Positions 44,298 through 63,853 of a DNA stretch of 64,000 nucleotides are shown here, piece after piece. The position numbers were made by a program, and so were the translations under genes. Where the stretch lies: the NCBI RefSeq assembly GCF_007713735.2, contig NZ_VMNW02000003.1, positions 62,001-126,000 of the forward strand. Reading direction: 5' to 3'. A model generated the notes under the pieces. That model ran no database searches and was not told the origin of the DNA. It saw only the letters and a program-made list of their open reading frames with translations. The stretch comes from Amycolatopsis acidicola (GTDB lineage Bacteria > Actinomycetota > Actinomycetes > Mycobacteriales > Pseudonocardiaceae). How positions within the stretch are numbered: the stretch's first letter is position 1; each line of letters begins with the position of its first letter.

Positions 44298-44536
44298 GCC
44301 GAGAGCCGTGATCCGCTCGTGGCGGGACGGTCGCCGTTCGTCCGTGATCCGGCGCCGGTCGTTCGCGATCGGTTGCCAGGCCCCGCCGCGGGCACGGAAG
44401 GTGGTGTCGGAAAAGCCGAGCTCAGGGCGGCGGCCGTGACCAGGATCGAACTTGCGGGAGGACGCCATGAGATGCGATGAGCCTGATTCCGCGGTGGGCG
44501 CGGACAGCCCCGGTCCCGGCTCGCCGTGGCGCTGAC

Positions 44537-45448: not shown

Positions 45449-46140
45449 ACGCCTGGTCCACGGAGGAGTTCGAAGCGCGGCTGCGGTCGATCGGTGAAAA
45501 GCGGTACCACCATCTGCACCCGTTCAACGAACGGATGCACGCGGGCACGCTCACCGAGGAGGAGTTCCGGGGGTGGGTGCGGAACCGGTTCTACTATCAG
45601 GTGAACCTGCCGGTGAAGGACGCGTTCATCCTGACAAAGCTCCCCGGCCGCGAGGACCGGCGCCGGTGGATCCAGCGCATCATCGACCACGACGGCCGCA
45701 CCGGGAACGAAGGCGGCATCGAGAAGTGGGTCCGCCTCGGCGAATCGGTCGGCCTGACCCGCGAGCAGCTTTTCGACGATGACACGGTTTTGCCGGGCGT
45801 GCGCTTCGCCGTGGACGCCTATGTGGACTTCTGCCGCCGGCAGCCGTGGCTGGAGTCCGTCGCGTCGGCGCTGACGGAGCTGTTCGCGCCCGATCTGCTC
45901 AGCAGGCGGATCACCGACGTCAGCCGCCACTACCCGTGGATCGCGGCGGAAGGCCTGGAGTACTTCCGGGCGCGGCTCACCCAGCAGCCCAAGGACATCG
46001 CGCATCTGCTCGAACTGGTGCTGGACAACGCGAAATCCCGCGAACAGCAGGACGCGTGCGCGCGGGCGCTGGAGTTCAAGTGCGATGTACTCTGGAGCCT
46101 CCTCGACGCCGTCGAACTCGCCTACGGCAAGAGCTCGTGA
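45445..46140 (+). CDS. pqqC: Pyrroloquinoline-quinone synthase PqqC
   Basis: 231 aa. It is a heme-oxygenase-like helical protein with the family core RYHHLHPFNERMHAGTLTEEEFRGWVRNRFYYQ (~residues 19-51) and ILTKLPGREDRRRWIQRIIDHDG. PqqC carries out the last ring closure and eight-electron oxidation to PQQ without a cofactor. It overlaps pqqB by 4 bases and abuts pqqD in a TGATG junction. Slightly shorter than the proteobacterial enzymes, mainly at the C-terminus. Confidence 0.95.
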   Translation: MNAWSTEEFEARLRSIGEKRYHHLHPFNERMHAGTLTEEEFRGWVRNRFYYQVNLPVKDAFILTKLPGREDRRRWIQRIIDHDGRTGNEGGIEKWVRLGESVGLTREQLFDDDTVLPGVRFAVDAYVDFCRRQPWLESVASALTELFAPDLLSRRITDVSRHYPWIAAEGLEYFRARLTQQPKDIAHLLELVLDNAKSREQQDACARALEFKCDVLWSLLDAVELAYGKSS

Positions 46141-46415
46141 TGGACACCGACGATCTGACGGCCATCCCGCGGCTGGTGACCAAGGCGATGCTCAAGCACG
46201 ACAGCGTCCGGGACGTCGAACTGCTCCTGCTGCCGGAACGGGTCGTGCTGCTGAACAAGTCCGGGGCGGCGATACTGGGCCTCTGCGACGGCAGCCGGAC
46301 CGTACGGCAGCTGGTCGACCGGCTCGAGCGGGATTTCGAGGCGACCGATCTCACGAACGACGTCATGAAGTTCCTCGAGGACGCCAGCGGGCGGGGCTGG
46401 GTGGTGGTCCGGTGA
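46140..46415 (+). CDS. pqqD: PqqA peptide chaperone PqqD
   Basis: 91 aa. RiPP recognition element fold: IPRLVTKAMLKHDSVRDVELLLLPERVVLLNKSGAAILGLCDGSRTVRQLVDRLERDF, ending in a C-terminal helix. PqqD binds PqqA and presents it to PqqE. It is encoded as a separate protein here, not fused to pqqC. It starts in TGATG with pqqC and its stop overlaps the GTG of pqqE. Confidence 0.94.
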   Translation: MDTDDLTAIPRLVTKAMLKHDSVRDVELLLLPERVVLLNKSGAAILGLCDGSRTVRQLVDRLERDFEATDLTNDVMKFLEDASGRGWVVVR

Positions 46416-47518
46416 ACGGGACACCACAGCCGTTCGGCCTGCTGGCCGAGGTGACCCACCAGTGCCCGCTGCACTGCGTCTACTGCTCGAACCCCGTGGC
46501 GCTGCTCGGCAGGCAGGACGAGCTCACCACCGGCGACTGGATCCGGGTGATCGGCGAAGCGGCCGCGCTCGGTGTCGTGCAGGTGCACTTCTCCGGCGGG
46601 GAACCGTTGGTGCGCGGCGATTTGGAGACACTGGTCGCCGAGGCCCGCCGCCTCGGCCTGTACACGAACCTGATCACCAGCGGCCTCGGGCTCACGGAGT
46701 CCCGGGCCGGATCGCTCGTCGCGGCGGGGCTCAACAGCGCCCAGCTGAGCATCCAGGGCGACGCCGCCGAGTCGACGGACCTGGTCGCGGCGAGCAAACG
46801 CTTCGACAAGAAGGAAGCGGCCGCGCGGATCATCCGTGACGCCGGGCTGCCGTTGAACATGAACGTGGTCCTGCACCGGCTGAATCTGGCCCGGCTGGAC
46901 GCGATCATCGACGTCTGCGTGGACTGGGGCGCCGAACGGCTGGAGCTCGCCAACGCCCAGTACTACGGCTGGGCGTTGCGCAACCGCGAACTCCTGATGC
47001 CGAGCAAGACCCAGCTGGACGAGGCGGTCGGCGTCTACGAACGCCGGAAGGCCGAATTGGCGCAGCAGCTGGAACTGCTCTGGATCCTCCCGGACTACTA
47101 CGAGCCCTACCCCAAGCCGTGCATGGGCGGATGGGCGCGGACGGCGCTGACCGTCGCCCCGGACGGCGTGGTCTACCCGTGCCCGGTCGCGGCGGAGATC
47201 ACGACGATGGAGTTCGCTTCGGTGCGCGAGCACGATCTCGCGTGGATCTGGGCGAATTCTCCCGCGTTCGAGGCTTTCCGTGGCACCGCGTGGATGCCCG
47301 ACCCGTGCCGCGGCTGTCCGCGCAAGGAACTGGACTTCGGCGGCTGCCGGTGCCAGGCCTTCGCGCTGACCGGCGACGCGGGCCGCACCGACCCGGTGTG
47401 CCGGTATTCGCCGGACCACCACCTGGTGCGGGACGCGCTCGTGCGGGCCAACCAGGAGGAGGTCGCGGACGGCGAGCTCGTGTACCGCCGTCCCACGGTT
47501 TCGGCGCGAGGACGATGA
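46412..47518 (+). CDS. pqqE: Radical SAM PqqA Glu-Tyr cross-linking enzyme PqqE
   Basis: 368 aa from the GTG overlapping the pqqD stop. The radical SAM cluster motif is Cys18-x3-Cys22-x2-Cys25 (CPLHCVYC). SAM-binding FSGGEPLVRGDLETL follows, and the C-terminal SPASM region has Cys in KPCMGGW, VYPCPVA, DPCRGCPRKELDFGGCRCQAF for two auxiliary clusters. PqqE forms the C-C bond between Glu and Tyr of PqqA. The next gene (M1 peptidase) overlaps its stop by 4 bases. Confidence 0.95.
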   Translation: MNGTPQPFGLLAEVTHQCPLHCVYCSNPVALLGRQDELTTGDWIRVIGEAAALGVVQVHFSGGEPLVRGDLETLVAEARRLGLYTNLITSGLGLTESRAGSLVAAGLNSAQLSIQGDAAESTDLVAASKRFDKKEAAARIIRDAGLPLNMNVVLHRLNLARLDAIIDVCVDWGAERLELANAQYYGWALRNRELLMPSKTQLDEAVGVYERRKAELAQQLELLWILPDYYEPYPKPCMGGWARTALTVAPDGVVYPCPVAAEITTMEFASVREHDLAWIWANSPAFEAFRGTAWMPDPCRGCPRKELDFGGCRCQAFALTGDAGRTDPVCRYSPDHHLVRDALVRANQEEVADGELVYRRPTVSARGR

Positions 47519-49908
47519 CCCTCACGCAGGATGAAGCGGCGGAGCGGTCGGCCGAGGTCTTCGACGTCGAGTATGAAGTAGCCCTCGATCTTACCGTGGG
47601 GGAGCGGGAATTCACGACGGTCACGGTCGTCCGCTTCCAGGCCAGGACCGGCCGCGAGGTCGTCTTCCTCGACTTCGCGGGCGAGGTCGATTCCGTTTCC
47701 CACAACGGTTCCGAGGTGCCCGACGCGCACGACGGGACGCGCGTCCGGCTCGCCGCGCGGCCGGGCGCGAACACGGTCCGGGTGGCCGGTTCCGCGCCGT
47801 ATTCGCGCACCGGTGAGGGTCTGCACCGGTTCCGCGACCCGCTCGACGGACAGGTCTACCTGCACACCAAGTTCGAGCCTTTCGCGGCGCACAAGGTGTT
47901 CGCGTGTTTCGACCAGCCCGACCTGAAGGCGACGGTCGAGCTGAGCGTCACCGCCGAGGACGACTGGGTGGTGGTCGCCAACACCGAACCGGTGGAGTCC
48001 GGGCCGACTTGGCGGTTCGGCCGGACGCCCCCGCTGCCGACGTACCTGGTCGCGTTCTGCGCGGGCCCGTTCCGCCGGGTCGGTTCGAGCCACCACGGAA
48101 TTCCGCTGGCGCTGTACGCGCGGAGCTCGCTTTTCGAACGGCTTACTGACGAGGCGGCCGAGATCTTCGAGGTCGTCGGCCGCGGTCTCGACTTCTACGG
48201 GCGGCTGTTCGCGCTCCCGTATCCCTTCGCGAAGTACGACCACGTCTTCGCGCCCGAGTACGCGTTCGGGGGCATGGAACATCCGGGCTGCGTGACGCTC
48301 AACGAACGGTTCCTCTTCGCGCACCGCGTCACCGAGGACAAGCGGCGGCGGCGGTCCGAGCTGCTGATGCACGAAATGGCGCACATGTGGTTCGGCGACT
48401 ACGTGACGATGCGCTGGTGGGACGACCTGTGGCTGAACGAGGCCTTCGCGGTGCTGATGTCGGTCGTCGCGCAGCCGGAGGTCACGCGGTACGGGGAAGG
48501 CTGGACCGCGTTCGAGCACCACAACCTGCCGCCGGCCCGGCACGCCGACCAGCTGCCGACCAGCCACGCGATCCGGGTGACCACGGCCGACACCGACGCC
48601 GCGCGGTCGAACTTCGGCCCGATCGTCTACCGGAGAGGCGCGGCGGTCCTTCACGAACTCGCCGGACGCCTCGGCTGGGAGTCCTTCATCGCCGGGGTGC
48701 GGACGTATCTGCGGGCGCACGCGTGGGGCAACGCCGGGCTCGACGACTTCGTGGCGGCGCTGCGATCGGTGTCGGACGAAGACCTGGATCGCTGGGTGGC
48801 GGAGTGGTTGCTGCGGCCCGGGGTCAACACGGTCGAAGTGTCCAGAGTGGAGGGACGGGTGGCGCAGCTGCCCGATCCGGAGGTTCCGCCGCGCCACCTG
48901 AATCCGGTCGTCGCGGCGTTCGACGAGCACGACGGCAAGCTGGTGCCGTGCGACACGACGCCGTCGGCGGATCTGCTGGTGCCGAACGCAGACGCGGCTT
49001 GCTATGTCAAGGTCAGGCTGGACCCGCGGTCCCGGCAGGCGGCGTTACGTTGTCTGTCCACTATGGATGACCAGCGAACGCGTGCGGTCGTGTGGGGAGC
49101 GCTCTGGGACGATGTTCTCGACGCGCGCGTCGCCGCCCGGGAGTACGCGTCCGCCGTACTCGCGCATGGGCGGGTGGAGAGCGATGGCATCGTGGAGGCG
49201 CTCCTGGAGCGTGCTGTTACGGCGGTGCAGGTTTATGGGGATCCCAGGGGGCTTCGCGTGCTGGCGGGCCGGGTGCGGGAACAACTGGCCGGTGCCGTTC
49301 CGGGTGGCGACCGGCAATTGGTGCTGGCGCGCGTACTCGTCAGCGTCGTCGAGGACGGCGATCTGCTGCGCGAACTCGCGTGTGGACGGTCGCCTTGGCC
49401 GGAGCTGGCAGTGGATCCCGACCTCAGGTGGCGGAGCCTGTTCCGGCTCGCGTCGACCGGAGGCGAGATCGACGGACTCCTGGATCGCGCGCGAGAAGCC
49501 GACCCCGGGGACGGTGGCCACCGCAACGCCTTGACGGCCGAAGCCGCAAGCCCTTCCGGTAAAGAAGAAGCGTGGAACCGGTTGTTCGATGACGGTCTTT
49601 CGCTGGCGGAGAAGAAGGCCGTCATGGCGGGATTCCGGCAGCCGGGCCAGGAATCGGTGCTCACGCCGTACGCGGACCGCTACTGGCGGGCGCTGGAGAG
49701 TCTGACGCGAGAACCTCGGCGCGAGTTCGTCCTCGCGTTCGCCGGTGCCCTGTATCCGCGGTTCACCGACGCCGGACAGCGCGTGCTGGCAGACACCGAT
49801 GAGTTGCTGGAGCGCGGGCTGCTGCCCGACGACGTGCGCAAGGTCGTCCGGGAGGAGCGCGCCGAGCTCCTCATCATGCGGGCGGCTCGCGTCCGCGACG
49901 CGGTGTGA
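47515..49908 (+). CDS. M1 family metallo-aminopeptidase in the pqq operon
   Basis: 797 aa, ATGA overlap with pqqE. The zinc site is His286-Glu287-x2-His290-x18-Glu309 (HEMAHMW ... LNEAF), with the exopeptidase motif GGMEHPG at 252-258 in place of GAMEN. An N-terminal beta-domain and a long C-terminal helical ERAP1-like domain complete the PepN layout. There is no signal peptide. PQQ assembly needs proteolysis of cross-linked PqqA; the usual M16 peptidase PqqF/G is not in this window. Tight coupling to pqqE makes this enzyme a candidate to trim PqqA. General peptide turnover is the alternative. Confidence 0.88.
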   Translation: MTLTQDEAAERSAEVFDVEYEVALDLTVGEREFTTVTVVRFQARTGREVVFLDFAGEVDSVSHNGSEVPDAHDGTRVRLAARPGANTVRVAGSAPYSRTGEGLHRFRDPLDGQVYLHTKFEPFAAHKVFACFDQPDLKATVELSVTAEDDWVVVANTEPVESGPTWRFGRTPPLPTYLVAFCAGPFRRVGSSHHGIPLALYARSSLFERLTDEAAEIFEVVGRGLDFYGRLFALPYPFAKYDHVFAPEYAFGGMEHPGCVTLNERFLFAHRVTEDKRRRRSELLMHEMAHMWFGDYVTMRWWDDLWLNEAFAVLMSVVAQPEVTRYGEGWTAFEHHNLPPARHADQLPTSHAIRVTTADTDAARSNFGPIVYRRGAAVLHELAGRLGWESFIAGVRTYLRAHAWGNAGLDDFVAALRSVSDEDLDRWVAEWLLRPGVNTVEVSRVEGRVAQLPDPEVPPRHLNPVVAAFDEHDGKLVPCDTTPSADLLVPNADAACYVKVRLDPRSRQAALRCLSTMDDQRTRAVVWGALWDDVLDARVAAREYASAVLAHGRVESDGIVEALLERAVTAVQVYGDPRGLRVLAGRVREQLAGAVPGGDRQLVLARVLVSVVEDGDLLRELACGRSPWPELAVDPDLRWRSLFRLASTGGEIDGLLDRAREADPGDGGHRNALTAEAASPSGKEEAWNRLFDDGLSLAEKKAVMAGFRQPGQESVLTPYADRYWRALESLTREPRREFVLAFAGALYPRFTDAGQRVLADTDELLERGLLPDDVRKVVREERAELLIMRAARVRDAV

Positions 49909-51247: not shown

Positions 51248-52225
51248 GTGTCAGCTCTGAACAAGATCGCGCGAACCATGGTGTCCGGCAGGCGCGGGAT
51301 CCTCGCCGCCGACGAGAGCATCGGGACGATGTCCGCCAGGCTGGAAAAAGTGGGCGTCGAGCCGACCGCGGAGACCCGCCGGGTGTACCGGGAGCTGCTC
51401 GTCACCACCCCGCAGCTCGCCGAGTCGGTCAGCGGCATCATCCTCGCAGACGAGACGTTCCACCAGAAACTGGGCGATGGCCGCACTTTCCCGCAGTACC
51501 TCGACGACATCGGGATCCTCGCCGGGATCAAGGTCGACACCGGGGCGAAGCCGCTGGCCGGCGCGCCCGAGGAGAAGATCACCGAGGGGCTCGACGGGCT
51601 GCGCGAACGGGTCGCGGACTACGTGCGGCTCGGCGCGACGTTCGCGAAATGGCGGGCGGTGATCACGATCGGCGGTGACGCGCCGTCGGAGCGCGCGGTG
51701 CGTGCGAACGTGCACGCGCTGGCCCGCTACGCCGGCCTCTGCCAGGAGGGCGGGCTGGTGCCGATCGTCGAACCCGAGGTGCTGATGGACGGCGACCATT
51801 CGCTGGAGCGCTGCCGTGAGGTGACGACCGCCGTGCTGGAAACGCTGTTCGAGGAGCTCGACCTGATGCGCGTGCGGCTCGACGGCATCGTCCTCAAGCC
51901 CAACATGGTGGTTCCCGGGACCGGCAGCGGGGAGCGGCCCACGGTGGGGGCCGTCGCACTGGCCACCGTGGAGGTGCTGCGGGAGACCGTGCCGACGTCC
52001 GTGCCGGGTATCGCTTTCCTTTCCGGCGGGCAAAGTCCGGAGCTCGCGACGCAGCACCTCGGGGCGATGCAGAAGCTCGGACGGCTGCCGTGGGAGCTCA
52101 CCTACTCGTTCGGCCGGGCGCTGGTCGGGCCCGCGCTGGAGACCTGGCGAGGCGACGACACCAACTGGGCCGCCGCGCAGAAAGCGCTCTCCGAGCGGGC
52201 CCTCGCGAACGCTGCCGTGCGTTAG
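51248..52225 (+). CDS. fba: Class I fructose-bisphosphate aldolase
   Basis: 325 aa, GTG start after GGAGGAACGACGACA. The Schiff-base enzyme pattern is present: RRGILAADESIGTM (~residues 16-29), FAKWRAVITI, and the active-site Lys in GIVLKPNMVVPG (~residue 217), followed by FLSGGQSPELAT. Class I aldolases need no metal. It supplies triose and hexose phosphates for the rearrangement phase that rebuilds ribulose-5-phosphate. It is followed by a strong hairpin. Confidence 0.92.
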   Translation: MSALNKIARTMVSGRRGILAADESIGTMSARLEKVGVEPTAETRRVYRELLVTTPQLAESVSGIILADETFHQKLGDGRTFPQYLDDIGILAGIKVDTGAKPLAGAPEEKITEGLDGLRERVADYVRLGATFAKWRAVITIGGDAPSERAVRANVHALARYAGLCQEGGLVPIVEPEVLMDGDHSLERCREVTTAVLETLFEELDLMRVRLDGIVLKPNMVVPGTGSGERPTVGAVALATVEVLRETVPTSVPGIAFLSGGQSPELATQHLGAMQKLGRLPWELTYSFGRALVGPALETWRGDDTNWAAAQKALSERALANAAVR

Positions 52226-52230
52226 AGCCG

Positions 52231-52280
52231 CCGCGGGCGGCCGGATCTGTCCGAGTGGGTCCCGGCCCGGCCGCCCGTGG
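52231..52280. terminator. Hairpin between fba and the glpX-like gene
   Basis: CCGCGGGCGGCCGG (52231-52244) pairs with CCGGCCGCCCGTGG (52267-52280) at 13 of 14 positions, with a 22-base loop. It begins 5 bases after the aldolase stop. There is no T run, so termination may be partial, leaving some read-through to the next gene. Confidence 0.6.
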
Positions 52281-52315
52281 CTTTCCACCCTTACCCCGCG
52301 AGCGGATCGAGAGTG

Positions 52316-53239
52316 ATGAGTACTCAGGAATGGACCACCACCGGGATTTCCGTCGCACCCGGCGATACGCTCGCGCTCGAACTCGTGCGGGTGACCGAAG
52401 CGGCCGCGATCGCGGCGGGGCGCTGGGTCGGCCGCGGTGAGCGGGACAACGGCCGGATCGCCGGCACCGCCGCGATGCGCGAGCACCTCGCGTCGGTGCG
52501 CATGCGCGGTGTGGTGGTGATCGGCGACGCCGGCATGGAAGCCGGGTTTGGCGAAGGGCCGGTGTGCGACGTCTGCATCACTGTGGGGGACGGGGCTTTG
52601 TCGGCGGCGAGGGATGTGCCGAACTCCCTGTCGGCCATCGCGGTCGCCGAGCGTGGCGCCTTCTACGAGCCGTCTCCGGGTGCTGTCATGGACAAGCTGG
52701 CCGTCGGGTCCGACTGCGCCGACGTCGTCGACATCACGCGTCCGGTCGCGGACAACCTGTGGGCGATCGCCGCGGCGAAGGGGGTCCGGGTGCCGGATTT
52801 GGTGGTCGCCGTGCCGAACCGGCCGCGGCATGCGGCGCTCGTGCGGGAACTCCGTGACGCGGGCGCGCGGATCCATCTGCTGGAAGGCGGAGACATCGCG
52901 GGTGCGATCGCGGCGGCGCGGGACGACGGCCCGGTGGACGTGCTGCTGGGCAGCGGGGGAGCGGCCGGGGGCGTGGTCGCCGCGGCCGCGCTGTCCTGCA
53001 TCGGCGGGGCGCTGCAGATGCGGCTGCGCACCGACGACGTCGACAAGGTCCTGCACACCGGCGATCTGGTGCGCGGCGAGAACATTCTGTTCTGTGCCAC
53101 CGGGGTGACGGGTAGCGAGTCGCTGCACGGGGTCCGGCATCACTCGGGTCGTACGACGACACAGTCCATTGTGCTCTGTTCGAACCCGCGCACGGCACGG
53201 ACGATCGCGTCCGAACGGCGACTCTTCCCGCCGGATTGA
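52316..53239 (+). CDS. GlpX-like (class II FBPase/SBPase family) protein, active site degenerate
   Basis: 307 aa. The whole sequence aligns with GlpX: RVTEAAAIAAGRWVGRG at the start, PVADNLWAIAAAKGV, PVDVLLGSGGAAGGVVAAAALSCIGG, HTGDLVRGENILFCATGVTGSESLHGV and a matching C-terminus. The metal and catalytic motifs are changed. GRGD-K reads GRGERD, GEGE reads GDAG, the DPxxGT loop is missing (ITVGDGALSAARD), and GAPEG reads GAAGG. The protein is also slightly short because of deletions around these sites. It may therefore be a non-catalytic homologue or have a different activity. It shares the region with fba and rpiB. Confidence 0.78.
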   Translation: MSTQEWTTTGISVAPGDTLALELVRVTEAAAIAAGRWVGRGERDNGRIAGTAAMREHLASVRMRGVVVIGDAGMEAGFGEGPVCDVCITVGDGALSAARDVPNSLSAIAVAERGAFYEPSPGAVMDKLAVGSDCADVVDITRPVADNLWAIAAAKGVRVPDLVVAVPNRPRHAALVRELRDAGARIHLLEGGDIAGAIAAARDDGPVDVLLGSGGAAGGVVAAAALSCIGGALQMRLRTDDVDKVLHTGDLVRGENILFCATGVTGSESLHGVRHHSGRTTTQSIVLCSNPRTARTIASERRLFPPD

Positions 53240-53276: not shown

Positions 53277-53756
53277 TCAAACCGGTCGTTCTCCGGGCAG
53301 GGCCGGCGGTTGGCCGGTGCGTTCGTAGTCCGTCAGCTGGTCGATCCGGCGTTGGTGGCGGCCGCCGTCGAATTCCGTGGCGAGGAACGCGTCCACGATC
53401 CGCTCGGCCTCCTCGACCGTGTGCATCCGGGCGCCGATACCGGCCAGCAGCGCGTTGTTGTGCCGCCGGGCCAGCCGCGCGGTGTCGACGTTCCACGTCA
53501 GCGCTGCGCGGGCGCCGGGCACCTTGTTCGCGGCGATCTGTTCCCCGTTCCCGGAACCGCCGATGACGAGGCCGAGGCTGCCCTCGTCGGCGACGACGCG
53601 CCGCGCCGTTTCGACGCAGAACGGCGGGTAGTCGTCGTCGGGGTCATAACCGCCGGGGCCGACATCTGTCACGTCGTGGCCGAGTTCGGTGAGCCTGCCG
53701 AGGAAATGGTTCTTGAGTTCGAGTCCGGCGTGATCGGAGCCAAGGTAGATTCGCAC
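53277..53756 (-). CDS. rpiB: Ribose-5-phosphate isomerase B
   Basis: 159 aa. RpiB/LacAB fold: MRIYLGSDHAGLELKNHF at the start and VIGGSGNGEQIAANKVPGARAALTWNVDTARLARRHNNALLAGIGARM (~residues 66-113). The active-site Cys position of this family is replaced by Ser (GGSGNGE), as in the mycobacterial/actinobacterial type that uses Glu as base. It interconverts ribose-5-P and ribulose-5-P, the acceptor for HPS. It is convergent with the GlpX-like gene. Confidence 0.92.
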   Translation of the reverse strand: MRIYLGSDHAGLELKNHFLGRLTELGHDVTDVGPGGYDPDDDYPPFCVETARRVVADEGSLGLVIGGSGNGEQIAANKVPGARAALTWNVDTARLARRHNNALLAGIGARMHTVEEAERIVDAFLATEFDGGRHQRRIDQLTDYERTGQPPALPGERPV

Positions 53757-54081: not shown

Positions 54082-54156
54082 ATGAAGTGGGAAACTCCGG
54101 AATACACGGTCATCGAGGTGTGTGCCGAGGCCACCGGTTACTTCTACCGGGGCTGA
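54082..54156 (+). CDS. pqqA: PQQ precursor peptide PqqA
   Basis: 24 aa, ATG 8 bases after a perfect AGGAGG. It begins MKWETPEY, like known PqqA (MKWxxPxY), and has the Glu16-x3-Tyr20 pair (EATGY) that PqqE cross-links and that becomes PQQ. The length of 24 and the positions 16 and 20 match the classical peptide. A Cys at 14 and the ending YFYRG are unusual. It is 6.6 kb downstream of pqqE and on the same strand, with its own promoter region and terminator. This allows expression at higher level than the enzymes. Confidence 0.93.
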   Translation: MKWETPEYTVIEVCAEATGYFYRG

Positions 54157-54370: not shown

Positions 54371-54919
54371 ATGACTCTGGCCTTTCTTCCGCTGATAGCA
54401 CTCGCCTTCGGGCTCAGTCTCGACAATTTCCGGTCCTCGATCGCCATCGGCACCATCCCGTTCGGGTGGCGCCGCGCCGTGCAGGTGTCGCTGGTGTTCG
54501 GCCTGTGGGACGCGGTGGGGCCGCTGCTGGGCGGGTTTCTCGGGCACTACCTCGGCGAGTTCCTCGGTGACACCGCGGAGTACATCGGCGCGGCCGCGCT
54601 GGGGTTGTACGGCGCGTACTTCATCATCAGCGCGATCCGGAACCCGGAGCCGGAGGACATGGACCATCCCTGGGTGACGCTGTTCGGGATGCCGCTTTCG
54701 CTGAGCGTGGACAATTTCATCGCCGGCGCCGGCCTGGGCATCGCGGGGTTCTCCGTCCTCGTCCCGATGCTGACCTTCGGTGCCATGACCGTGGTGATGT
54801 CGTTCGCGGGGTTGTACGTCGGACGGCTGGCCGCCAAGGCCGTCCGGATCCGGTCCGACCTGTTCAGCGGGATCTCCCTGCTGAGTGCCGCGATCCTGCT
54901 GCCACTGGTCTTCGGCTGA
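54371..54919 (+). CDS. MntP-like divalent metal exporter
   Basis: 182 aa, ATG at 54371. Six hydrophobic helices in two repeats, each with the acidic helix motif of the family: [15 protein letters not shown] (~residues 13-27) and [16 protein letters not shown] (~113-128), as in MntP/DUF204 (LSxDxF). MntP exports Mn2+. It ends 1 base before katG, so both are probably on one mRNA, linking metal export with peroxide defence. Transport of another metal cannot be excluded. Confidence 0.82.
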
Positions 54920-54920: not shown

Positions 54921-57149
54921 ATGCCCGAGAATCCCGACACCCACGTCTACCGCACCTACGACAAGGTACTGGGGGAGGCGCCGCCTGCCCGGCGGCGGAA
55001 CACCGGCGCCCGGGCGAACGACTGGTGGCCGGACCGGGTCGAGCTGAAGGCGTTGCGCCGGCCCCGGGACGCGGGCAACCCGCTTGGCGAGGACTTCGAC
55101 TACGCCGAACAGTTCGCCTCGCTGGATCTCGACGAACTGGCGCGTGACGTCGACGAGGTGCTGATGACCTCGCAGGACTGGTGGCCCGCCGAATTCGGGC
55201 ACTACGGCCCGCTCGTGCTCCGGATGGCCTGGCACGCCGCGGGAACCTACCGCGTCAGTGACGGCCGGGGCGGCGCGGCTGCCGGAATGCAGCGCTTCGC
55301 CCCGGTGAACAGCTGGCCGGACAACCGCAATCTGGACAAGGCGCGGCGGTTGCTGTGGCCGGTGAAACAGAAGTACGGGCGCCGGATCTCGTGGGCGGAC
55401 CTGATGGTCTTCGCGGGCAACCGCGCACTGGAGTCCATGGGCTTCAAGACCTTCGGGTTCGGCGGCGGCCGCGTCGAAGTGTGGGAGCCCGACGAGACGT
55501 ACTGGGGCCCGGAACGCAAGTGGCTCGCCGAAGAGCGCTACAGCGGTCTGCGCGAGCTCGACGAGCCGCTGGCAGCCACCGAGATGGGCTTGATCTACGT
55601 CGATCCGCAGGGCCCCGCGACGAATCCCGATCCGGTGCTCGCCGCCCGCGACATCCGGGAGACCTTCAAACGGATGGGGCTGGGCGACGAGGAGACGGTG
55701 GCGCTCATCGCGGGCGGGCACACGTTCGGCAAGACGCACGGCCCGGCTGACCCGAATCTCGTCTGTGGCCCCGAACCCGAGGCCGCGCCGCTCACCGCGC
55801 AGGGCCTCGGCTGGGCGGGCGGGCACGGCCGCGGCGTCGCGGCGGACACGGTCACCAGCGGGCTGGAAGGCATGTGGACGCGCACGCCCGCCGAGTGGGA
55901 CCACACGTTCTTCGAGACGTTGTTCGCCTACAAATGGGATGTCGAGCTCAGCCCGGCCGGGCTGTGGCAGTGGATCCCGAGCGACGGCCAGGGCGAGGGC
56001 ACCGTGCCGGACCCCTTCGACCCGGACACGAAACACCATCCGGTCATGCTCACCACCGACCTCTCGTTGCAGGAGGACCCGGTCTACGAGTCGATCTCGC
56101 GGCGGTTCCTGGAGCATCCGGACGAGTTCGAGGACGCCTTCGCGCGCGCCTGGTTCAAGCTGACCCACCTCGACATGGGCCCGGTCCGGCGCTACCTGGG
56201 GCCGCTCGTCCCGGCCGAACCGCTGATCTGGCAGGACCCGGTGCCGGAGGTGGACCACGAACTGGTGGACGCCGACGACGTCGCCGCCCTCAAGCGCGAG
56301 GTGCTCGGATCCGGTTTGACGGTCGCGCAGCTCGTCTCCACGGCGTGGGCGTCGGCTTCGACCTACCGTGACAGCGACAAGCGCGGCGGGGCGAACGGGG
56401 CGCGGATCCGGCTCGAGCCGCAACGCCACTGGCCTGTCAACGATCCCGCGCGACTGGACGTCGTTTTGCCCGTGCTGCAAGGGATCCAGGAGAAGTTCAC
56501 CGCCTCCCGGCACGACGGCAAGCGGATCTCGATGGCCGATCTGATCGTGCTGGGCGGTTGCGCCGCCGTGGAGCAGGCCGCCGCCGCGGGCGGCCACGAG
56601 GTCGAAGTCCCGTTCCGGCCCGGGCGCACCGACGCGACCCGGGAATGGACCGACGTCGAGTCGTTCGGCGCGTTGCGGCCCACGGCGGACGGTTTCCGGA
56701 ACTACCTTGGCGACGGTCTCCCGATGCCCCCGGAGCACCTGCTGATCGACCGGGCGAACCTGCTCACGTTGAGCGCGCCCGAAATGACGGTGCTGCTCGG
56801 CGGGTTGCGGGTGCTGGGCGCGAATCACCGGAGTTCTCCGCTGGGTGTGCTGACGTCGGCGCCGGGGACGCTGACGAACGACTTCTTCGTCAACCTGCTG
56901 GACATGGGGACGGAGTGGGCGCCGAGACGGCACGGCCACGCCTGGACGGCGAGTTACGAGGGCCGCGCCAGGGACACCGGCGAGGTGAGGTGGACCGCGA
57001 GCCGGGTCGATCTCCTTTTCGGCTCGCATTCCGAATTGAGAGCGCTATCCGAGGTCTACGCCAGTGCGGACGCGGGCGGAAAGTTCGTCCGTGATTTCGT
57101 GGCGGCCTGGGTGAAGGTCATGGAACTCGACCGGTTCGACCTACGCTGA
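54921..57149 (+). CDS. katG: Catalase-peroxidase KatG
   Basis: 742 aa with the two-domain KatG layout. The distal site is [11 protein letters not shown] with His105 and Trp104. The Tyr of the Met-Tyr-Trp adduct is in [11 protein letters not shown] and the Met in TFKRMGLGD. The proximal heme His is in [11 protein letters not shown]. The C-terminal domain repeats the fold without heme ([29 protein letters not shown]). It removes H2O2 and oxidises phenols. Its place inside the C1 island suggests protection from peroxide made during alcohol oxidation and PQQ assembly. One base separates it from the MntP-like gene. Confidence 0.96.
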
Positions 57150-57196: not shown

Positions 57197-57490
57197 TCTG
57201 CTGCGCTCATGAGATTTCCCCGGTGGCTCATCAGCCGTAGCGATGGGACCGAAAATCCAGTGTGGACACCAAAAGTACGCCTCGGATCTGCACGAACGGT
57301 ACCTGTTTCCGGGCGAACGGCGGCGTAGTGCCGGTCTCCGGCAAGGGATGTCGGAACGGTTTTCCCGGGGGTAGAGTTCGGACTCGTTACAGGCTCGACG
57401 GTGCATACCGGTTCTCAATCAGCACCTGTAACCACGAGTTTCGTGAAGCGGTCGAAATGCTGATTTCTGCTGACGAGGAGGTGAAGTCCG
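57197..57490. promoter_or_regulatory. Promoter region of the cupredoxin-quinoprotein operon
   Basis: About 290 bases without a gene. ACGGT occurs at 57296, 57356 and 57398, i.e. spaced 60 and 42 bases, and ACGGTGCATACCGGT (57398-57412) contains a short inverted repeat. These could be regulator sites for the LytTR proteins encoded downstream. No sure -10/-35 could be assigned. The ribosome site before the first gene is GAGGAGGTG. Confidence 0.4.
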
Positions 57491-57946
57491 ATGACGATTG
57501 CCCAGGAACGAGAAGATCTCCTGGCCGAGCTCGGCGGACAGAACAGGGCCACCATCGGTGCCGTGCTCGGGTCCGGCTCGATCGGGAAGGCGACCGAGCG
57601 TGCCGACGGCACGATGGAGGCGACCATCCGGATCCCGGAGGACGCGATGACGTGGGAGCCGGGGGTGCTGATCCTGCCGCACGCCGGGATTCTCGAGCTG
57701 ACGATCATCAACGACGACAAGAACACCCACGCTTGCCTGCTGCCCAGCAACGGCGACAAGCAGTTCATCGGCCTGCTGAACCACTCGAAGGGCACCGCGC
57801 GGCTCGAACTGGACGGCCCCGGCTGCTACTGGTACGGCTCGCCCGCCGGCAACGACGAGGGCCGCGGGCTGACCGCCGCCATCGTCGTGACCGGTGAGGT
57901 GCCGCCGGAAGCCAAGCTCGACCGACCCGCCCAGCCGCGGCCGTAG
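57491..57946 (+). CDS. Cupredoxin-fold protein upstream of the PQQ dehydrogenase
   Basis: 151 aa, ATG after GAGGAGGTGAAGTCCG. The C-terminal ~100 residues look like a plastocyanin/MSMEG-type cupredoxin: GVLILPHAGILELTIINDDKNTHACLLPSNGDKQ, then GPGCYWYGSPAGNDEGRGLTAAIVVTG. The first His ligand could be in NTHAC, but the late loop that should read Cys-Pro-x-x-Gly-His-x4-Met has Gly and Asn at the Cys and His places. Type 1 copper binding is therefore doubtful unless the nearby Cys (GPGC) is used. There is no signal peptide. It lies 16 bases before the quinoprotein gene, so it is probably its electron acceptor or a structural partner. Confidence 0.68.
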   Translation: MTIAQEREDLLAELGGQNRATIGAVLGSGSIGKATERADGTMEATIRIPEDAMTWEPGVLILPHAGILELTIINDDKNTHACLLPSNGDKQFIGLLNHSKGTARLELDGPGCYWYGSPAGNDEGRGLTAAIVVTGEVPPEAKLDRPAQPRP

Positions 57947-57962
57947 AAAGGCAGGAACCACC

Positions 57963-59645
57963 ATGACGATCGAATACGTCGACGCCGGCAAGGCGTTCGA
58001 CCACAGTCAGCTGTCCAACCTGCCGCACAGCGCGCCGGACGTGACGCGCGGCGTGGACTACGAGCGCATCCTCCGTGCGCGGAGCGAATCGGACAACTGG
58101 CTCACCTACTACGGCGACTACGACGGCAAGCGGCACAGCCTGCTCGACCAGATCAACGCCGGGAACGTCAAGGACCTCAAGGTCGCCTGGATCTTCCAGG
58201 CGAGCGCGAGCGGGCTGATCGCCTCCACGTCGACCTACGCGTTCGAGGCCTGCCCGCTGGTCGTCGACGGGGTCATGTTCGTCACCGGCTGGGACGGCTG
58301 GCTCTGGGCGCTCGACGCGAAGACCGGCGAGCAGCTGTGGCGCTACAAGCACGCCATCCCGATCGACGTCACGTTGTGCTGTGCCAACGTCAACCGCGGC
58401 TGCGCGGTGGCGAACGGCAAGGTCTACATGGTCACCCAGAACGCCCAGCTGGTCGCGCTCGACGCCACCAACGGCCGGAAGGTCTGGCAGAAGACCATCG
58501 GCGACGTGCGGGCGGGCGAAAGCGCCTCGATCGCCCCGCTGGTCGTGAAGGACACGCTCATCACCGGTTCCGCCGGCGGCGAGTACGGCGTCCGCGGGCA
58601 CATCGACTGCTGGGACCTGGAAACCGGCGAGCAGCGCTGGCGCACCTACACCGTGCCGAAGCCCGGCGAGCCCGGCTCGGAGACCTGGCCTGCCGACGGC
58701 GAGGCCTGGCAGCGCGGCGGCGCGAACCACTGGGTCACCGGCACGTTCGACCCGGAGCTGAACCTCTACTACGCGGGCACGGGTAACCCGGCGCCCGACT
58801 TCGACGGCGAGGTCCGTGAAGGGGACAACCTCTACACCGACAGCGTGGTCGCGGTGGACGTCGACACCGGCGAGATCAAGTGGCACTACCAGTTCACCCC
58901 GCACGACCTGTGGGACTACGACTCCACCATGGAGATGACGCTGTTCGAGCGGGACGGCAAGAAACTGCTGGCCCACTTCGACAAGAACGGCTACATGTTC
59001 GTGCTCGACCGCACCAACGGCGAGCTGCAGCACGTCACGCCGTTCGTCGACCGGATCGACTGGGGCGTCATCACCCGCGACGGCAAGGTGACCCCGCGGA
59101 AGTACCCGGACAAGGAGGGCGAGCCCTGCCACTTCTTCCCCGGCCCCGCCGGGGCGAAGGAATGGACGCACGCGTCGTACAACCCGGACCACGACCTGTT
59201 CTACGTCCCGGTCGCCGACGTGGGCGCCACCGCCACCCGGCGTCGCCGCGAGTTCAAGGAGGGCATGCCCTACTGGGGTGCCGCCGTCGAGGTCGACATC
59301 GACAACATGGCCGGGTCGGTCAGCGCGTTCGACTCGCACGGCGAGGAGAAGTGGCGGCACCGGCTCGACAATCTGCCGATGGCCGCTTCGACGCTGAGCA
59401 CGGCGGGGGATGTGGTATTCGCCGGCACACCCGCGGGCGAATTCCTGGCGCTCCACTCGCAAACGGGCGAGAAGCTCTGGAGCTTCCAGTGCGGCAGCGG
59501 GCACCACAGCAGCCCGAGCACCTTCACCGTCGACGGCAAGCAGTACGTCGCGGTGCCGGTGGGCTGGGGCGGCTGGCTCGAGGGCATCGTCCCCGGCATG
59601 TCCGGTCAGGGACACGGTGCTTCGCTGATCGTGTTCTCGCTGTGA
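57963..59645 (+). CDS. PQQ-dependent alcohol (methanol) dehydrogenase
   Basis: 560 aa, ATG after AAAGGCAGG. Eight-bladed quinoprotein propeller with tryptophan docking motifs (GWDGWLWALDAKTGEQLWRYK, STPAGEFLALHSQTGEKLWSFQ-like repeats). It has the vicinal disulfide Cys139-Cys140 (TLCCAN) that lies over PQQ. The catalytic Asp is Asp318 in HDLWDYD; Asp320, two residues later, is the position used by XoxF/PedH to bind lanthanides, although other quinoproteins also have it. No signal peptide is visible, unlike periplasmic MDHs. The metal, cell location and physiological alcohol are not proven. Nearby PQQ genes and hps point to methanol or another small alcohol. Confidence 0.87.
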   Translation: MTIEYVDAGKAFDHSQLSNLPHSAPDVTRGVDYERILRARSESDNWLTYYGDYDGKRHSLLDQINAGNVKDLKVAWIFQASASGLIASTSTYAFEACPLVVDGVMFVTGWDGWLWALDAKTGEQLWRYKHAIPIDVTLCCANVNRGCAVANGKVYMVTQNAQLVALDATNGRKVWQKTIGDVRAGESASIAPLVVKDTLITGSAGGEYGVRGHIDCWDLETGEQRWRTYTVPKPGEPGSETWPADGEAWQRGGANHWVTGTFDPELNLYYAGTGNPAPDFDGEVREGDNLYTDSVVAVDVDTGEIKWHYQFTPHDLWDYDSTMEMTLFERDGKKLLAHFDKNGYMFVLDRTNGELQHVTPFVDRIDWGVITRDGKVTPRKYPDKEGEPCHFFPGPAGAKEWTHASYNPDHDLFYVPVADVGATATRRRREFKEGMPYWGAAVEVDIDNMAGSVSAFDSHGEEKWRHRLDNLPMAASTLSTAGDVVFAGTPAGEFLALHSQTGEKLWSFQCGSGHHSSPSTFTVDGKQYVAVPVGWGGWLEGIVPGMSGQGHGASLIVFSL

Positions 59646-59670
59646 TGTCCTGACGGTTTCCCGTTTTCCG

Positions 59671-59714: not shown

Positions 59715-59739
59715 TGCCGCCGTTCGCGAAGGTGATCCG

Positions 59740-59946
59740 ATGAACGAGTCCTCGATTCCGGGCCAGGACAAGGAAAGCGCGGGCCTGCCGTGCCTGTACT
59801 GCGGGGAGCGATACGGGCCGGACGACGTCCGGCGGCACACCGAGCCGGTGGACTGCGGGCCCTGCATCACGTGCGTCGGCAAGCCCGCGTGTTTCGAATG
59901 CCGCCTCATGTACTGCGTCTGCGACGTGCACCGGTACCGGGGCTGA
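59740..59946 (+). CDS. Small Cys-rich protein downstream of the PQQ dehydrogenase
   Basis: 68 aa, ATG 6 bases after AAGGTGAT. Ten Cys in a dense pattern (PCLYCGERYG, DCGPCITCVGKPACFEC, MYCVCDVHRYRG) plus three His indicate a metal-binding knuckle or zinc-finger-like fold. There is no signal peptide. I do not recognise the family. The position behind the quinoprotein suggests a role with that enzyme, for example metal delivery or regulation. It is convergent with the GAF-LytTR gene, 10 bases between stops. Confidence 0.65.
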   Translation: MNESSIPGQDKESAGLPCLYCGERYGPDDVRRHTEPVDCGPCITCVGKPACFECRLMYCVCDVHRYRG

Positions 59947-59956
59947 AAAACGAGCG

Positions 59957-61351
59957 TCAGATCGCCAGTGCCCGGCGCACGGTGGGGGCGTTCCGCCGGG
60001 AAACCGGCACCATGGTCTGGTCCTGGTCGTCCATGACCAGCACCAGCTCGCCCTTGTACCGGCGCTCGACCTCGCGGATGCGGCTGAGGTTCACGACGTA
60101 CTGGCGGTGCACCCGGAGGAATCCGGCGTCGCTCAGGTCGGCTTCGAGCCGGTCCAGGCCGGGCAGCGCGGAGCGCAGCAGCCCTTGGTCGGTCGACAGC
60201 CACACGTCGTTGCCGTCCGACTGCGCGAAGGAGACTTCGGGGAGCCGCAACAGAACCATGCGGTTCTCGCGCGTCGCGACCATCCGGTGTGGTTGCGCGC
60301 GCAGCGAGACGTCGTCGTTCGCCCTGGGAAGTAGATCTCCTTCGGACACCCCGAACGAGACGACGTTGCCGACCAGATGACCGGACAGGAACACCGGCCG
60401 GAAGCTGATCGCCGTCGGTTCGTGGGTGAGCCGGGTGAAGATCTGCGTCGAACCGGCCCAGTCGTGGTTGCGCGACGCCTGTTCCGCCGCGTATTTGGCG
60501 GCCTGGATGAATTCCGGCAGTTCCGGTTTCCACCGCACCGCGGGATCGGGTGCCGGCGTGGAGCCCGGGATGCCGAGTAGCGCGCCCGCGGTGTCGTCGG
60601 CCAGCACGACCCGGCCGGCGCGATCGACGGCGGCGAGCGCCGCGCTCGAGCCCGACCGGACGTGGTTGAGCGCGGCGACCAGTTCGGCGCCGTCGTTCTT
60701 GGCGCGCTGGCGCAGGATGCGCTGGGTCAGCGTGGCGGCGTGGCCGAGCCAGTTCCCCGCGCTGGCGGGAAGATCGCTGCGCCAGCAGGAAATGTTGAGC
60801 ACCGCCACCGGCTTCCTGGTCACCACGTCCCGGACCGCGACACCCGCGCAGGTCCAGTCGTGGAAGGCCTGGCACCAGTGTTCGGCACCGCGGATGACCA
60901 CGGGGGTGTAGGTCGTCAGCGCGGTCCCCATGCCGTTCGTCCCGGTGGCGCCTTCCGACCAGCAGAACCACGGCGCCAGGTTGGCCTCGGCGGCGAGGGT
61001 GCGGGTGGCCTGGTCGCCCCATTCGGCCAGGACCCGCCCGGAGCCGTCGGCGATGGTCACGATGCCGCCGAGCGTGCCGACCTCGTGGGCCAGCGCAGCG
61101 GCGCGGAACCCGAGCTCGGCGAAGACGACGTCGTGCTCCAGGGCGTGGCCGACCTCCGCGACGGCCGCCGGGGCTTCGGTGAGGCCGGGGTCGACCCGGT
61201 ATTGGTCCCGGCACCGGTGCCAGGAAATCGCTATCTCCGGCCGCACGCCGCTGAGGTCGTCCTCGCCGCGGGCGAACCGTTCCCACGCCCTGAACACCGT
61301 CGTGTCGTCACGGTTGCGCGAACTCGGGTCGAGCCGGCGTACCTGTGCCAT
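59957..61351 (-). CDS. GAF-LytTR transcriptional regulator
   Basis: 464 aa, ATG at 61351. The N-terminal half resembles the sensor part of AcoR-type activators (VRPEIAISWHRCRDQYRVDP, then a GAF domain with EGATGTNGMGTAL and GAEHWCQAFHDWTCAGVAVRDV). Instead of an AAA+ and Fis domain it ends in a LytTR DNA-binding domain (~residues 365-464: VSFAQSDGNDVWLSTDQGLLRS, GFLRVHRQYVVNLSRIREVERR). AcoR-like GAF domains sense small metabolites. It is one of a divergent pair beside the PQQ dehydrogenase operon and is a candidate methanol/formaldehyde-responsive regulator. Confidence 0.83.
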   Translation of the reverse strand: MAQVRRLDPSSRNRDDTTVFRAWERFARGEDDLSGVRPEIAISWHRCRDQYRVDPGLTEAPAAVAEVGHALEHDVVFAELGFRAAALAHEVGTLGGIVTIADGSGRVLAEWGDQATRTLAAEANLAPWFCWSEGATGTNGMGTALTTYTPVVIRGAEHWCQAFHDWTCAGVAVRDVVTRKPVAVLNISCWRSDLPASAGNWLGHAATLTQRILRQRAKNDGAELVAALNHVRSGSSAALAAVDRAGRVVLADDTAGALLGIPGSTPAPDPAVRWKPELPEFIQAAKYAAEQASRNHDWAGSTQIFTRLTHEPTAISFRPVFLSGHLVGNVVSFGVSEGDLLPRANDDVSLRAQPHRMVATRENRMVLLRLPEVSFAQSDGNDVWLSTDQGLLRSALPGLDRLEADLSDAGFLRVHRQYVVNLSRIREVERRYKGELVLVMDDQDQTMVPVSRRNAPTVRRALAI

Positions 61352-61720: not shown

Positions 61721-63172
61721 ATGACTGGGAGAGTGCCGCCACTGGTGGTCGCACCGAGCAGGCCCAGCGGACGTGACCGCGTGCCCGACGGCTCTTTGGT
61801 GGCAACGTCATCGGCGAAGGAAGTGGCCCGCGCGTGGGAGAACTTCGCCGCGGGCGAAGACATCGAGACCGGCGTGCGGCCCGAGATCCTGGCTTCGTGG
61901 TACCGGTGCCGGGATCGCTACGAGGTCGACCGCACGCTCGATGTCGCGCCGGGGGCAGGCGGTGACGAGGCCCAGGGGATCGACAACGGGGTCATCTTCA
62001 CCGCGCTTGGCGGTCTCGGCGCGCTGGCGGGTCAGGCGGTCGAAAGCGACGGTGCGGTCGTCACCGTGACGGACGGGGACGGGCGCGTCCTCGGCTCCTG
62101 GGGCGACCCCAGCGCGCAGCGCCGCGCCGAACTGCACAACCTCGCGCCGTGGTCCTCGTGGTCGGAGGAGTGCACGGGCACGAACGGGATGGGCACGTCG
62201 CTGGAGGTGTCCGGCCCGGTGACCGTGACCGGGCCGGAACATTGGTGCGAAGCGTTCCACCAGTGGGCGTGCGCGGGTATTTCCATCCGCGACGTGGTGA
62301 CCGGCGCGCCGGTGGCGTCGATCAACATTTCGCGCTGGAACGCGTCGCTGTCGAAACTCGTGCCGCCGTGGCTGACGAAGGCGGTCGCGTGCGTGGAACA
62401 GGAGATCTACCGGCGCGCCATCTACGAAGCCGACAAGGTGATCGCCGAATTCACCAAGAAATCCGCGCAGGCGGGCGGTTCCTTCATGGCGATGGACCGC
62501 GGCGGCAACGTGATCGCCGCGAACGAAGCGGCCGTCGCGATGCTCGGGCTGGCCGGGGAAACACCCATCGTCGCGGGCGCGACCGAACCGGCGGAGCGCT
62601 GGACCCCGGACGTCACGGGGCTGCGCGATGTGGTGCGGTGGGCCATGGACCGCGCGAAGGGGACGACCGGGTGGAGCGGCTACGCGCATCTGCCGGTCTG
62701 TCCCGGCGAAGAGCCCACGCCACTGACCATGCGGTCCGTCGTCGACTCCAACCACGTGGTGGGCATGCTGTGCATGTTCGGCGTGCAGGAGGGCGAAGCC
62801 TACGAGGGCAACGCCGACGAGACGATCGGCCCGCTGCCCCGGTGCGTCATCGGGATGCGCAACGACCGGCTGGTGCTGCTGGCGCCTTCGGAAATCCGCT
62901 ACGCCGAGGCCGACCGGAACATCGTCTGGCTGATCACCGAACGGGGCCGGATCCAGGCCGCGACCCGCGGTCTGGAGAACGTCGAGCGATCGCTGACGTC
63001 ACACGGGTTCCGCCGGGTGCACCGGCGGTTCCTGGTCAACCTCCGCCGGGTGGCGGAAATCGAGCGGGGCATCAAGGGGGAACTGTTCCTGATCATGGAC
63101 TCCCGGGCGCACGAGTTCGTGCCCGTGTCCCGGCGGCACGCCACGGATCTGCGGCGCATGCTCGGGGTGTGA
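61721..63172 (+). CDS. GAF-LytTR transcriptional regulator, paralogue
   Basis: 483 aa from the ATG 6 bases after AAGGAGG; the frame is open further upstream but without a comparable site. Same architecture as the divergent neighbour: VRPEILASWYRCRDRYEVD, GAF domain with EECTGTNGMGTSLEV and GPEHWCEAFHQWACAGISIRDV, a PAS-like middle (SFMAMDRGGNVIAANEAAVAMLGL), and a C-terminal LytTR domain (SEIRYAEADRNIVWLITERGRI, GFRRVHRRFLVNLRRVAEIERG). The two proteins are clearly paralogous but well diverged. It is convergent with rpe, with abutting stops. Confidence 0.83.
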   Translation: MTGRVPPLVVAPSRPSGRDRVPDGSLVATSSAKEVARAWENFAAGEDIETGVRPEILASWYRCRDRYEVDRTLDVAPGAGGDEAQGIDNGVIFTALGGLGALAGQAVESDGAVVTVTDGDGRVLGSWGDPSAQRRAELHNLAPWSSWSEECTGTNGMGTSLEVSGPVTVTGPEHWCEAFHQWACAGISIRDVVTGAPVASINISRWNASLSKLVPPWLTKAVACVEQEIYRRAIYEADKVIAEFTKKSAQAGGSFMAMDRGGNVIAANEAAVAMLGLAGETPIVAGATEPAERWTPDVTGLRDVVRWAMDRAKGTTGWSGYAHLPVCPGEEPTPLTMRSVVDSNHVVGMLCMFGVQEGEAYEGNADETIGPLPRCVIGMRNDRLVLLAPSEIRYAEADRNIVWLITERGRIQAATRGLENVERSLTSHGFRRVHRRFLVNLRRVAEIERGIKGELFLIMDSRAHEFVPVSRRHATDLRRMLGV

Positions 63173-63853
63173 TCAGCGCGCGGCCAGCGCTTCCACCTGA
63201 CGGCGCAGGCCTTCCACGGCCTGCGCCGGATCCGCGGCCGCGTAGACGGCCGAGCCGGCGACGAAGCAGTCGACGCCGGCCTCGGCCGCCTGCTCGATCG
63301 TGTCGGCGTTGATCCCGCCGTCGATCTCCACCACCAGGTTCAGGTGGCCGGCGTCGACCAGCGTCCGTGCCCTGCGCACCTTGCCGAGGACGTCGGCGAT
63401 GAACTTCTGGCCGCCGAAACCGGGTTCCACGGACATCACCAGCAGGGTGTCGTAGTGCTTGAGCACGTCGAGGTAGGGCTCCAGCGGTGTGCCCGGTTTG
63501 ATCGCGAGCCCCGCCTTGGCGCCCGCGGCTCGCAGGTTCTTCGCGAGCATGACCGGGTCCTCGGCGGCCTCGACGTGCACGGTGACGTTGTAGGAACCCG
63601 CTTCCGCGTACCCGATCGCCCAGCGATCCGGGTTTTCGATCATCAGGTGGCAGTCCACCGGAATGCCGGTGGCGGCCAGCAGCGACCGCACGACGGGCAG
63701 GCCCAGGGTCAGGTTCGGCACGAAATGCGCGTCCATGACGTCCACGTGCAGCCAGTCCGCGCCGCGTTTTCCTTGTACGGCGGTCACTTCCTCGGCGAGG
63801 CGGGCGAAGTCGGCGGAGAGGATGGACGGAGCTATCAACGGCTGGTTCGACAC
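63173..63853 (-). CDS. rpe: Ribulose-phosphate 3-epimerase
   Basis: 226 aa, GTG start. Classic Rpe barrel: [17 protein letters not shown] (~residues 7-23), [20 protein letters not shown] with the metal His and Asp, [24 protein letters not shown] and [12 protein letters not shown]. It interconverts ribulose-5-P and xylulose-5-P in the rearrangement phase of the RuMP cycle. It is divergent from the duplicated hps-type leader at the right end, so it sits next to a second C1 promoter. Confidence 0.93.

Follow-up and report, generated by a model that had tools for sequence, protein, structure and literature searches.

The window, a 64,000-nucleotide stretch from Amycolatopsis acidicola (source assembly of 9.47 Mb in 195 contigs, with a contamination estimate of 6.96%), carries two adjacent plus-strand genes that are separated by a gap of 16 bases. 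The first (57491..57946) encodes a 151-aa protein of the MSMEG_3727 family, which we call the partner and which matches TIGR04339 with 259.9 bits (cut-off 75) and PF23509 with 245.7 bits (cut-off 27). The second (57963..59645) encodes, from its ATG, a 560-aa PQQ-dependent alcohol dehydrogenase, the quinoprotein. It scores 621.2 bits against TIGR03075, the profile for PQQ-dependent methanol/ethanol dehydrogenases (cut-off 480.05).

Upstream of this pair and on the same strand lie genes for KatG, a catalase-peroxidase paralogue (54921..57149; TIGR00198, 1064.4 bits against a cut-off of 770.25), and for an MntP-family membrane protein (54371..54919; PF02659, 85.2 bits against 24.4). Downstream of the pair we found a gene for a cysteine-rich protein of 68 aa with nine Cys (59740..59946, plus strand), which has no NCBIfam or Pfam match. 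It is followed by two LytTR-type regulators that match PF04397, the first on the minus strand (59957..61351; 58.6 bits) and the second on the plus strand (61721..63172; 62.7 bits), and by a minus-strand gene for ribulose-phosphate 3-epimerase (RPE; 63173..63853; PF00834, 255.8 bits).

The window also encodes PQQ synthesis. The genes pqqB, pqqC, pqqD and pqqE (44534..47518, plus strand) score 366.7, 313.5, 72.1 and 480.5 bits, all above the NCBIfam cut-offs, and we therefore rejected the idea that PQQ synthesis is lacking. A motif scan gave a probable pqqA for the 24-aa precursor peptide (54082..54156, plus strand), whose Glu and Tyr are spaced as expected. This candidate reaches 15.7 bits against TIGR02107, below the cut-off of 20; its counterpart in locus L120 reaches 35.8 bits. 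Directly 3′ of pqqE is a gene for an M1 aminopeptidase (47515..49908, plus strand; TIGR02412, 675.4 bits against 591.2), which is possibly the peptidase that trims PqqA.

Further genes belong to sugar phosphate metabolism. They encode 3-hexulose-6-phosphate synthase (HPS), copy 1 (43546..44175, minus strand; TIGR03128, 233.8 bits against 200), a class I fructose-bisphosphate aldolase together with a GlpX-type fructose-bisphosphatase (51248..53239, plus strand; NF033379, 476.8 bits; PF03320, 280.4 bits) and an RpiB-type ribose-5-phosphate isomerase (53277..53756, minus strand; PF02502, 154.4 bits). PHI and an NDMA-type methanol dehydrogenase are encoded on the same contig, just outside the window. 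The gene for the NDMA-type enzyme (685.4 bits) is 9.4 kb past the window and adjoins that of an ExaC-type aldehyde dehydrogenase. In this stretch past the window (L171, 15426-19314), it is followed by genes whose products resemble MadB (an AAA ATPase) and MadC (VWA proteins) and score below the respective NCBIfam cut-offs; a mycofactocin maturase is encoded elsewhere in the genome.

Two nearly identical HPS genes (43546-44175 of the window and 6011-6640 of L171) bracket the island, and they have a common 44-base upstream element. The near-identity and the common element suggest that the copies arose by a recent duplication. This element occurs only upstream of the two HPS copies, and we did not find a promoter element common to the pair and the RuMP genes. 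A scan for consensus promoters and terminators also found nothing.

We studied relatives of the pair in two sets of loci that overlap in genomes. The first set (L040-L079) consists of 40 loci that were hand-picked among the TIGR04339 matches listed. The named set (L080-L158) is the best 80, of which 79 are distinct, of 157 relatives, so that farther relatives are outside it; 47 of its loci, termed well-flanked, extend 8 kb or more to either side. By name, the best-matching relatives in our search are Amycolatopsis and Pseudonocardia. Of 390 genomes from the window's taxonomic family, 135 have a TIGR04339 match above the cut-off (136 at an E-value of 0.001), and TIGR04339 occurs in two of the 394 genomes of a class-wide sample. 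A phylum sample comprised 396 genomes, and TIGR03075 scored above its cut-off in nine of them: eight from another family and the window's own. Each of these nine has the partner next to the quinoprotein, with no signal seen.

The quinoprotein gene is beside the partner gene in 78 of the 79 named loci (best of 157 relatives) and in 39 of the 40 first-set loci. The odd one among the 79 (L136) is on a contig that ends 63 bases past the partner. In the odd one of the first set (L059), a partner gene (63% identity) is present and no quinoprotein gene was found within the 20-kb stretch.

The gene order of the window (KatG, partner, quinoprotein, cysteine-rich protein, two LytTR genes, RPE) is repeated in related genomes, and a second arrangement among the relatives is LytTR, KatG, partner, quinoprotein and pqqBCDE. 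A LytTR regulator is linked to the pair in 45 of the 47 well-flanked loci of the best-of-157 set. The MntP-family gene is linked in 25 of the same 47 loci and in six of eight loci from the distant family, and this pump might be involved in handling the enzyme's metal. Relatives of the 68-aa cysteine-rich protein occur in 34 of 87 loci, including those of Micrococcales and mycobacteria; it is possibly a metal or redox protein.

The original prediction was that both proteins of the pair lack a Sec or Tat signal, and this withstood an analysis of the alternative upstream starts of each, which took in stop positions, hydrophobicity and a scan for twin-arginine patterns and yielded no signal. The alternative start of the quinoprotein, GTG 57894, adds 23 residues (MRCRRKPSSTDPPSRGRRKAGTT) that are hydrophilic and have no hydrophobic stretch, and an in-frame stop lies two codons upstream of this GTG. 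For the partner, no upstream start is possible, because a TGA (57482-57484) lies three codons above the ATG; GAGGAGG is found at 57475-57481.

The same result was obtained with the relatives. As a signal score, we used the most hydrophobic 11-residue window within the first 45 residues, calculated for every possible in-frame start, with a threshold of 1.8. Whichever start was tried, this threshold was reached by none of 108 distinct quinoproteins (mean 0.73, maximum 1.66) and by none of 110 distinct partners (maximum 1.64). Under identical scoring, 11 of 12 plasmid-borne control quinoproteins reach at least 1.8, the exception being a haloarchaeal protein (L185; 0.39). Among distant actinobacterial PQQ-propeller proteins, 14 of the 15 that are scorable are at 1.8 or above. 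The fifteenth has a Tat-like start and scores 1.27 (L200), which means that the hydrophobicity score can miss Tat signals. The comparison had 19 rows, with 15 at 1.8 or above; we dropped a broken fragment that scored 2.04 (L201), and three rows had no scorable start (L198, L203 and L205), two of these being contig-cut members of the family.

Patterns resembling a twin-arginine motif follow some possible start in 6 of the 108 quinoproteins and 6 of the 110 partners. In the examples inspected, no hydrophobic core was seen after the pattern, and no start reaches 1.8. At most five codons are open upstream of residue 1 in 65 of the 110 partners. The N-terminus of the quinoproteins is conserved (residues 1-12 have a mean identity of 0.85, against 0.84 for the protein overall, and residues 13-30 have 0.57), and it is thus unlike a cleaved signal. 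We regard it as almost certain that Sec and Tat signals are absent from the pair. As read from the sequences, the missing signal is a trait of the whole examined family and extends beyond Amycolatopsis acidicola.

The active-site residues of the quinoprotein are intact. Residues C139-C140, E207, N275, the catalytic D318 and D320 are present in all 108 quinoproteins, including that of the window. D320 corresponds to the second Asp of lanthanide-type enzymes, two positions after the catalytic Asp, and is also found in 9 of the 12 controls. The closest solved chain by sequence is PedH (6zcv; 357.4 bits, E-value 1.4e-105). His514-His515 occurs in 108 of 108 quinoproteins but neither in PedH nor in any of the 12 controls, and Cys510 occurs in 104 of 108. 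The quinoprotein is probably a lanthanide-type PQQ alcohol dehydrogenase.

The partner was predicted to have a cupredoxin fold, and this proved correct for the fold, though not for the copper site that the name implies. Prediction from the single sequence gave a pLDDT of 48.4, and we instead used an AlphaFold2 model based on an alignment of 35 sequences (mean pLDDT 76.7, with residues 15-27 poor). The top PDB match of this model in Foldseek is CupA (E-value 4.1e-6), and there are 191 PDB matches with an E-value of at most 0.001. Searches of solved structures with the partner's sequence or profile gave nothing useful. At the position of the copper loop, which we placed from the strands of the predicted model, the partner has SxxGNDEGRG, and 117 of the 120 matched sequences have no Cys, His or Met within the 14 residues of the loop. 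Given that the copper ligands are missing from this C-terminal loop, the partner probably does not carry electrons in the manner of azurin, and we rejected it as a copper electron carrier to the extent that the model places the loop correctly. Most of the sequences end in a tail of the type LDRPxQPRP. We infer that the partner is an obligatory structural subunit of the quinoprotein.

It was also predicted that no gene for a c-type cytochrome is near the pair, and indeed there is no coding-like ORF of at least 80 aa with CXXCH in positions 47000-64000 of the window. CXXCH ORFs with a hydrophobic N-terminus occur in 3 of 87 neighborhoods. Searching the whole genome with PF00034 and PF13442 revealed one protein, the dihaem QcrC, which is encoded on another contig next to QcrA, QcrB and a CtaE-like protein. 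We found no soluble cytochrome c in the genome with these profiles. With neither a copper loop nor a soluble cytochrome found, the electron acceptor must be something else. In three of the eight distant-family loci, an ORF that we named by eye as 2Fe-2S ferredoxin-like is near the pair (for example, 3320-3623 of L222 and 13230-13533 of L225). This protein is possibly a cytosolic acceptor in the distant family.

The interpretation that we favor, with reasonable though limited confidence, is that the pair is a cytoplasmic lanthanide-type PQQ alcohol dehydrogenase, probably acting on methanol, with a dedicated copper-free subunit of cupredoxin fold and a cytosolic acceptor. Location in the cytoplasm, taken separately, is very likely. 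The original prediction had left two options, either that the proteins are exported in some other way or that they work in the cytoplasm with an acceptor out of the ordinary, and the evidence favors the second over the first. The cytoplasmic reading is favored because the examined family as a whole lacks a signal, because the N-terminus is conserved, because the quinoproteins are rich in Cys (a mean of 7.1 per protein versus 3.8 in the controls), because genes for PQQ synthesis, RuMP enzymes and KatG, none of them named in the original prediction, are around the pair, and because no soluble cytochrome c was found.

According to this cytoplasmic interpretation, methanol would be oxidized in the cytoplasm, and formaldehyde would be released beside HPS and the other RuMP-cycle enzymes encoded around the pair. 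PQQ would be made in the same compartment and loaded onto the quinoprotein there, with no export involved. Electrons would pass neither to a soluble periplasmic cytochrome c nor, judging by its sequence, through copper in the partner, but to a cytosolic acceptor. Two candidates for this acceptor stand out. One is O2, whose reduction would give H2O2 that the linked KatG could use; the other is a small redox carrier of the cytosol, for example mycofactocin.

The substrate is likely a small alcohol, and methanol is a somewhat better than even guess for Amycolatopsis acidicola. In the window's subtype, the pair is embedded in genes of the RuMP cycle, and HPS occurs in 14 of the 16 first-set loci of this subtype. 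On the other hand, HPS is linked in just 17 of the 79 named loci (best of 157 relatives), with none in the stretch examined for the other 62, which leaves methanol uncertain as the substrate across the family. Moreover, the genome has an NDMA-type methanol dehydrogenase, and the methanol enzyme could be this one and not the pair. A cytoplasmic pair could instead oxidize another small alcohol or an aldehyde, and methanol would be left to the NDMA-type enzyme. The nearest solved structure is that of an ethanol enzyme, PedH, and the ExaC-type aldehyde dehydrogenase beside the NDMA-type enzyme is also consistent with such a division. Because of the RuMP-cycle genes that surround the pair in the window's subtype, we consider this division unlikely. 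According to a passage in PMC6529628, and under the conditions used there, Mycolicibacterium smegmatis, which has MSMEG_3726 and MSMEG_3727, does not grow on methanol and needs mycofactocin for C2-C6 alcohols.

The linkage of KatG to the pair is widespread. KatG is encoded in 72 of the 79 named loci (best of 157 relatives) and in 45 of the 47 that are well-flanked, in several orientations, and it is directly upstream of the pair on the same strand in 58 of the 79. It is also present in 30 of the 40 first-set loci. The KatG of the window retains the distal Arg, Trp and His, Tyr229 and the proximal His, and it has Leu at the position of Met255, which belongs to the Met-Tyr-Trp cofactor. The second KatG of the genome (contig C195) has the Met. 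Among 92 KatGs of such clusters, Leu or Phe occupies this position in 40 and Met in 52, while Met occurs in all 31 other KatGs, and the loss of Met corresponds to about 12 changes on the tree. The cluster KatGs group apart from the 31 others with a low tree support of 0.44; one of the 31 is encoded about 14 kb from a pair. As stated in parts of PMC8355310 and PMC13272816, the cofactor is essential for the catalase activity and not for the peroxidase activity.

We see the chances that the quinoprotein and KatG are functionally coupled as evenly balanced. They could form a single redox module, with O2 or H2O2 re-oxidizing PQQH2 and the diverged KatG serving in this cycle as peroxidase instead of catalase. 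The linkage in varied orientations, the separate grouping of the cluster KatGs and the repeated replacement of a residue that catalase activity needs would all fit such a module. However, plain protection would explain the linkage too, more than half of the cluster KatGs (52 of 92) retain Met, and KatG is missing from 10 of the 40 first-set loci and from all eight distant-family loci. This module is therefore doubtful. Less probable again is a complete cytosolic cycle with a copper-free subunit, re-oxidation of PQQ by O2 or H2O2, a KatG without the catalase cofactor as dedicated peroxidase, and formaldehyde entering the RuMP cycle. If true, this cycle would be a bacterial counterpart of the peroxisomal pair of alcohol oxidase and catalase.

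One conserved feature does not point to the cytoplasm. Vicinal Cys residues form a disulfide in exported quinoproteins, and C139-C140 is kept in 108 of 108 family members, which does not favor a reducing compartment. In addition, QcrC, the sole c-type cytochrome found, presumably faces the outside of the membrane. The pair might be exported in folded form without a Sec or Tat signal, by a type VII-like system or an unknown carrier, and act at the surface with electrons passing to bcc-aa3 via QcrC. Every biochemically known relative acts outside the membrane, according to the relevant section of PMC12124388. Nevertheless, folded export is quite improbable: a signal is absent from the 108 quinoproteins, the 110 partners and the KatG of the window, the quinoproteins have extra cysteines, no secretion gene was identified among the conserved neighbors, and the RuMP and PQQ-synthesis genes that surround the pair encode cytoplasmic functions. 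Finally, it is scarcely credible that the quinoprotein lacks PQQ and is no more than an empty scaffold. Although a related NCBIfam group (TIGR04528) is named 'acido-empty-quinoprotein', the match to it (423.4 bits) is below the cut-off of 650, none of the 108 quinoproteins has lost any of the cofactor and metal residues tested, and PqqE was found within the stretch in 38 of the 79 named loci (best of 157 relatives) and in seven of the eight distant-family loci.

If the cytoplasmic interpretation is true, a widespread actinobacterial clade of quinoproteins breaks the rule that these enzymes work outside the membrane. PQQ, and perhaps lanthanides, would then be used inside the cytoplasm, and one would have to ask whether quinoproteins have a new electron acceptor. 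Quinoproteins are described in a passage of PMC12124388 as periplasmic enzymes whose electron acceptors are cytochrome c, quinones or azurin. A part of PMC3763247 assigns PQQ-dependent methanol dehydrogenases (PQQ-MDH) to Gram-negative bacteria and NDMA-dependent enzymes to Actinobacteria; the interpretation would bear on methanol oxidation by Gram-positive methylotrophs, which has long been credited to NDMA-type nicotinoproteins. Genes for PQQ synthesis and PQQ-MDH have been reported in Actinobacteria, as noted in passages of PMC5606694 and PMC4269115. Both family names and the existence of actinobacterial PQQ-MDH genes are already known. In the open-licence literature, we found nothing on the location or function of the TIGR03075/TIGR04339 pair. 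Our interpretation would also bear on an old report in which Nocardia sp. 239 is said to have a methanol dehydrogenase complex that contains PQQ.

Several known systems resemble the pair in part. PedH of Pseudomonas putida (6zcv, 6zcw), a lanthanide-dependent PQQ ethanol dehydrogenase, has the same vicinal Cys residues, Glu, Asn, catalytic Asp and second Asp at +2. However, PedH is periplasmic according to part of PMC6839425, whereas the quinoprotein of the window has no signal, has histidines at 514-515 and is constantly accompanied by a TIGR04339 partner. The XoxF and MxaFI methanol dehydrogenases have TIGR03075, the fold and the cofactor site in common with the quinoprotein, and the reaction is likely the same. 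They are periplasmic and feed cytochrome c, in contrast to the window's system, with its lack of a signal and no soluble cytochrome c found. Azurin and other cupredoxin acceptors have the fold of the partner model, but their Cys-His-Met copper loop is replaced by SxxGNDEGRG in the partner. Methylotrophic yeasts use an alcohol oxidase together with catalase. The resemblance to this system is only one of working, in that a haem enzyme that handles peroxide would stand beside formaldehyde fixation; the enzymes are unrelated, and peroxide in the case of our pair is hypothetical. A further counterpart is MSMEG_3726/MSMEG_3727 of Mycolicibacterium smegmatis, which is the same gene pair. MSMEG_3727 is a member of TIGR04339, and MSMEG_3726 is described in a passage of PMC3023750 as a lone PQQ alcohol dehydrogenase within a PQQ cassette.
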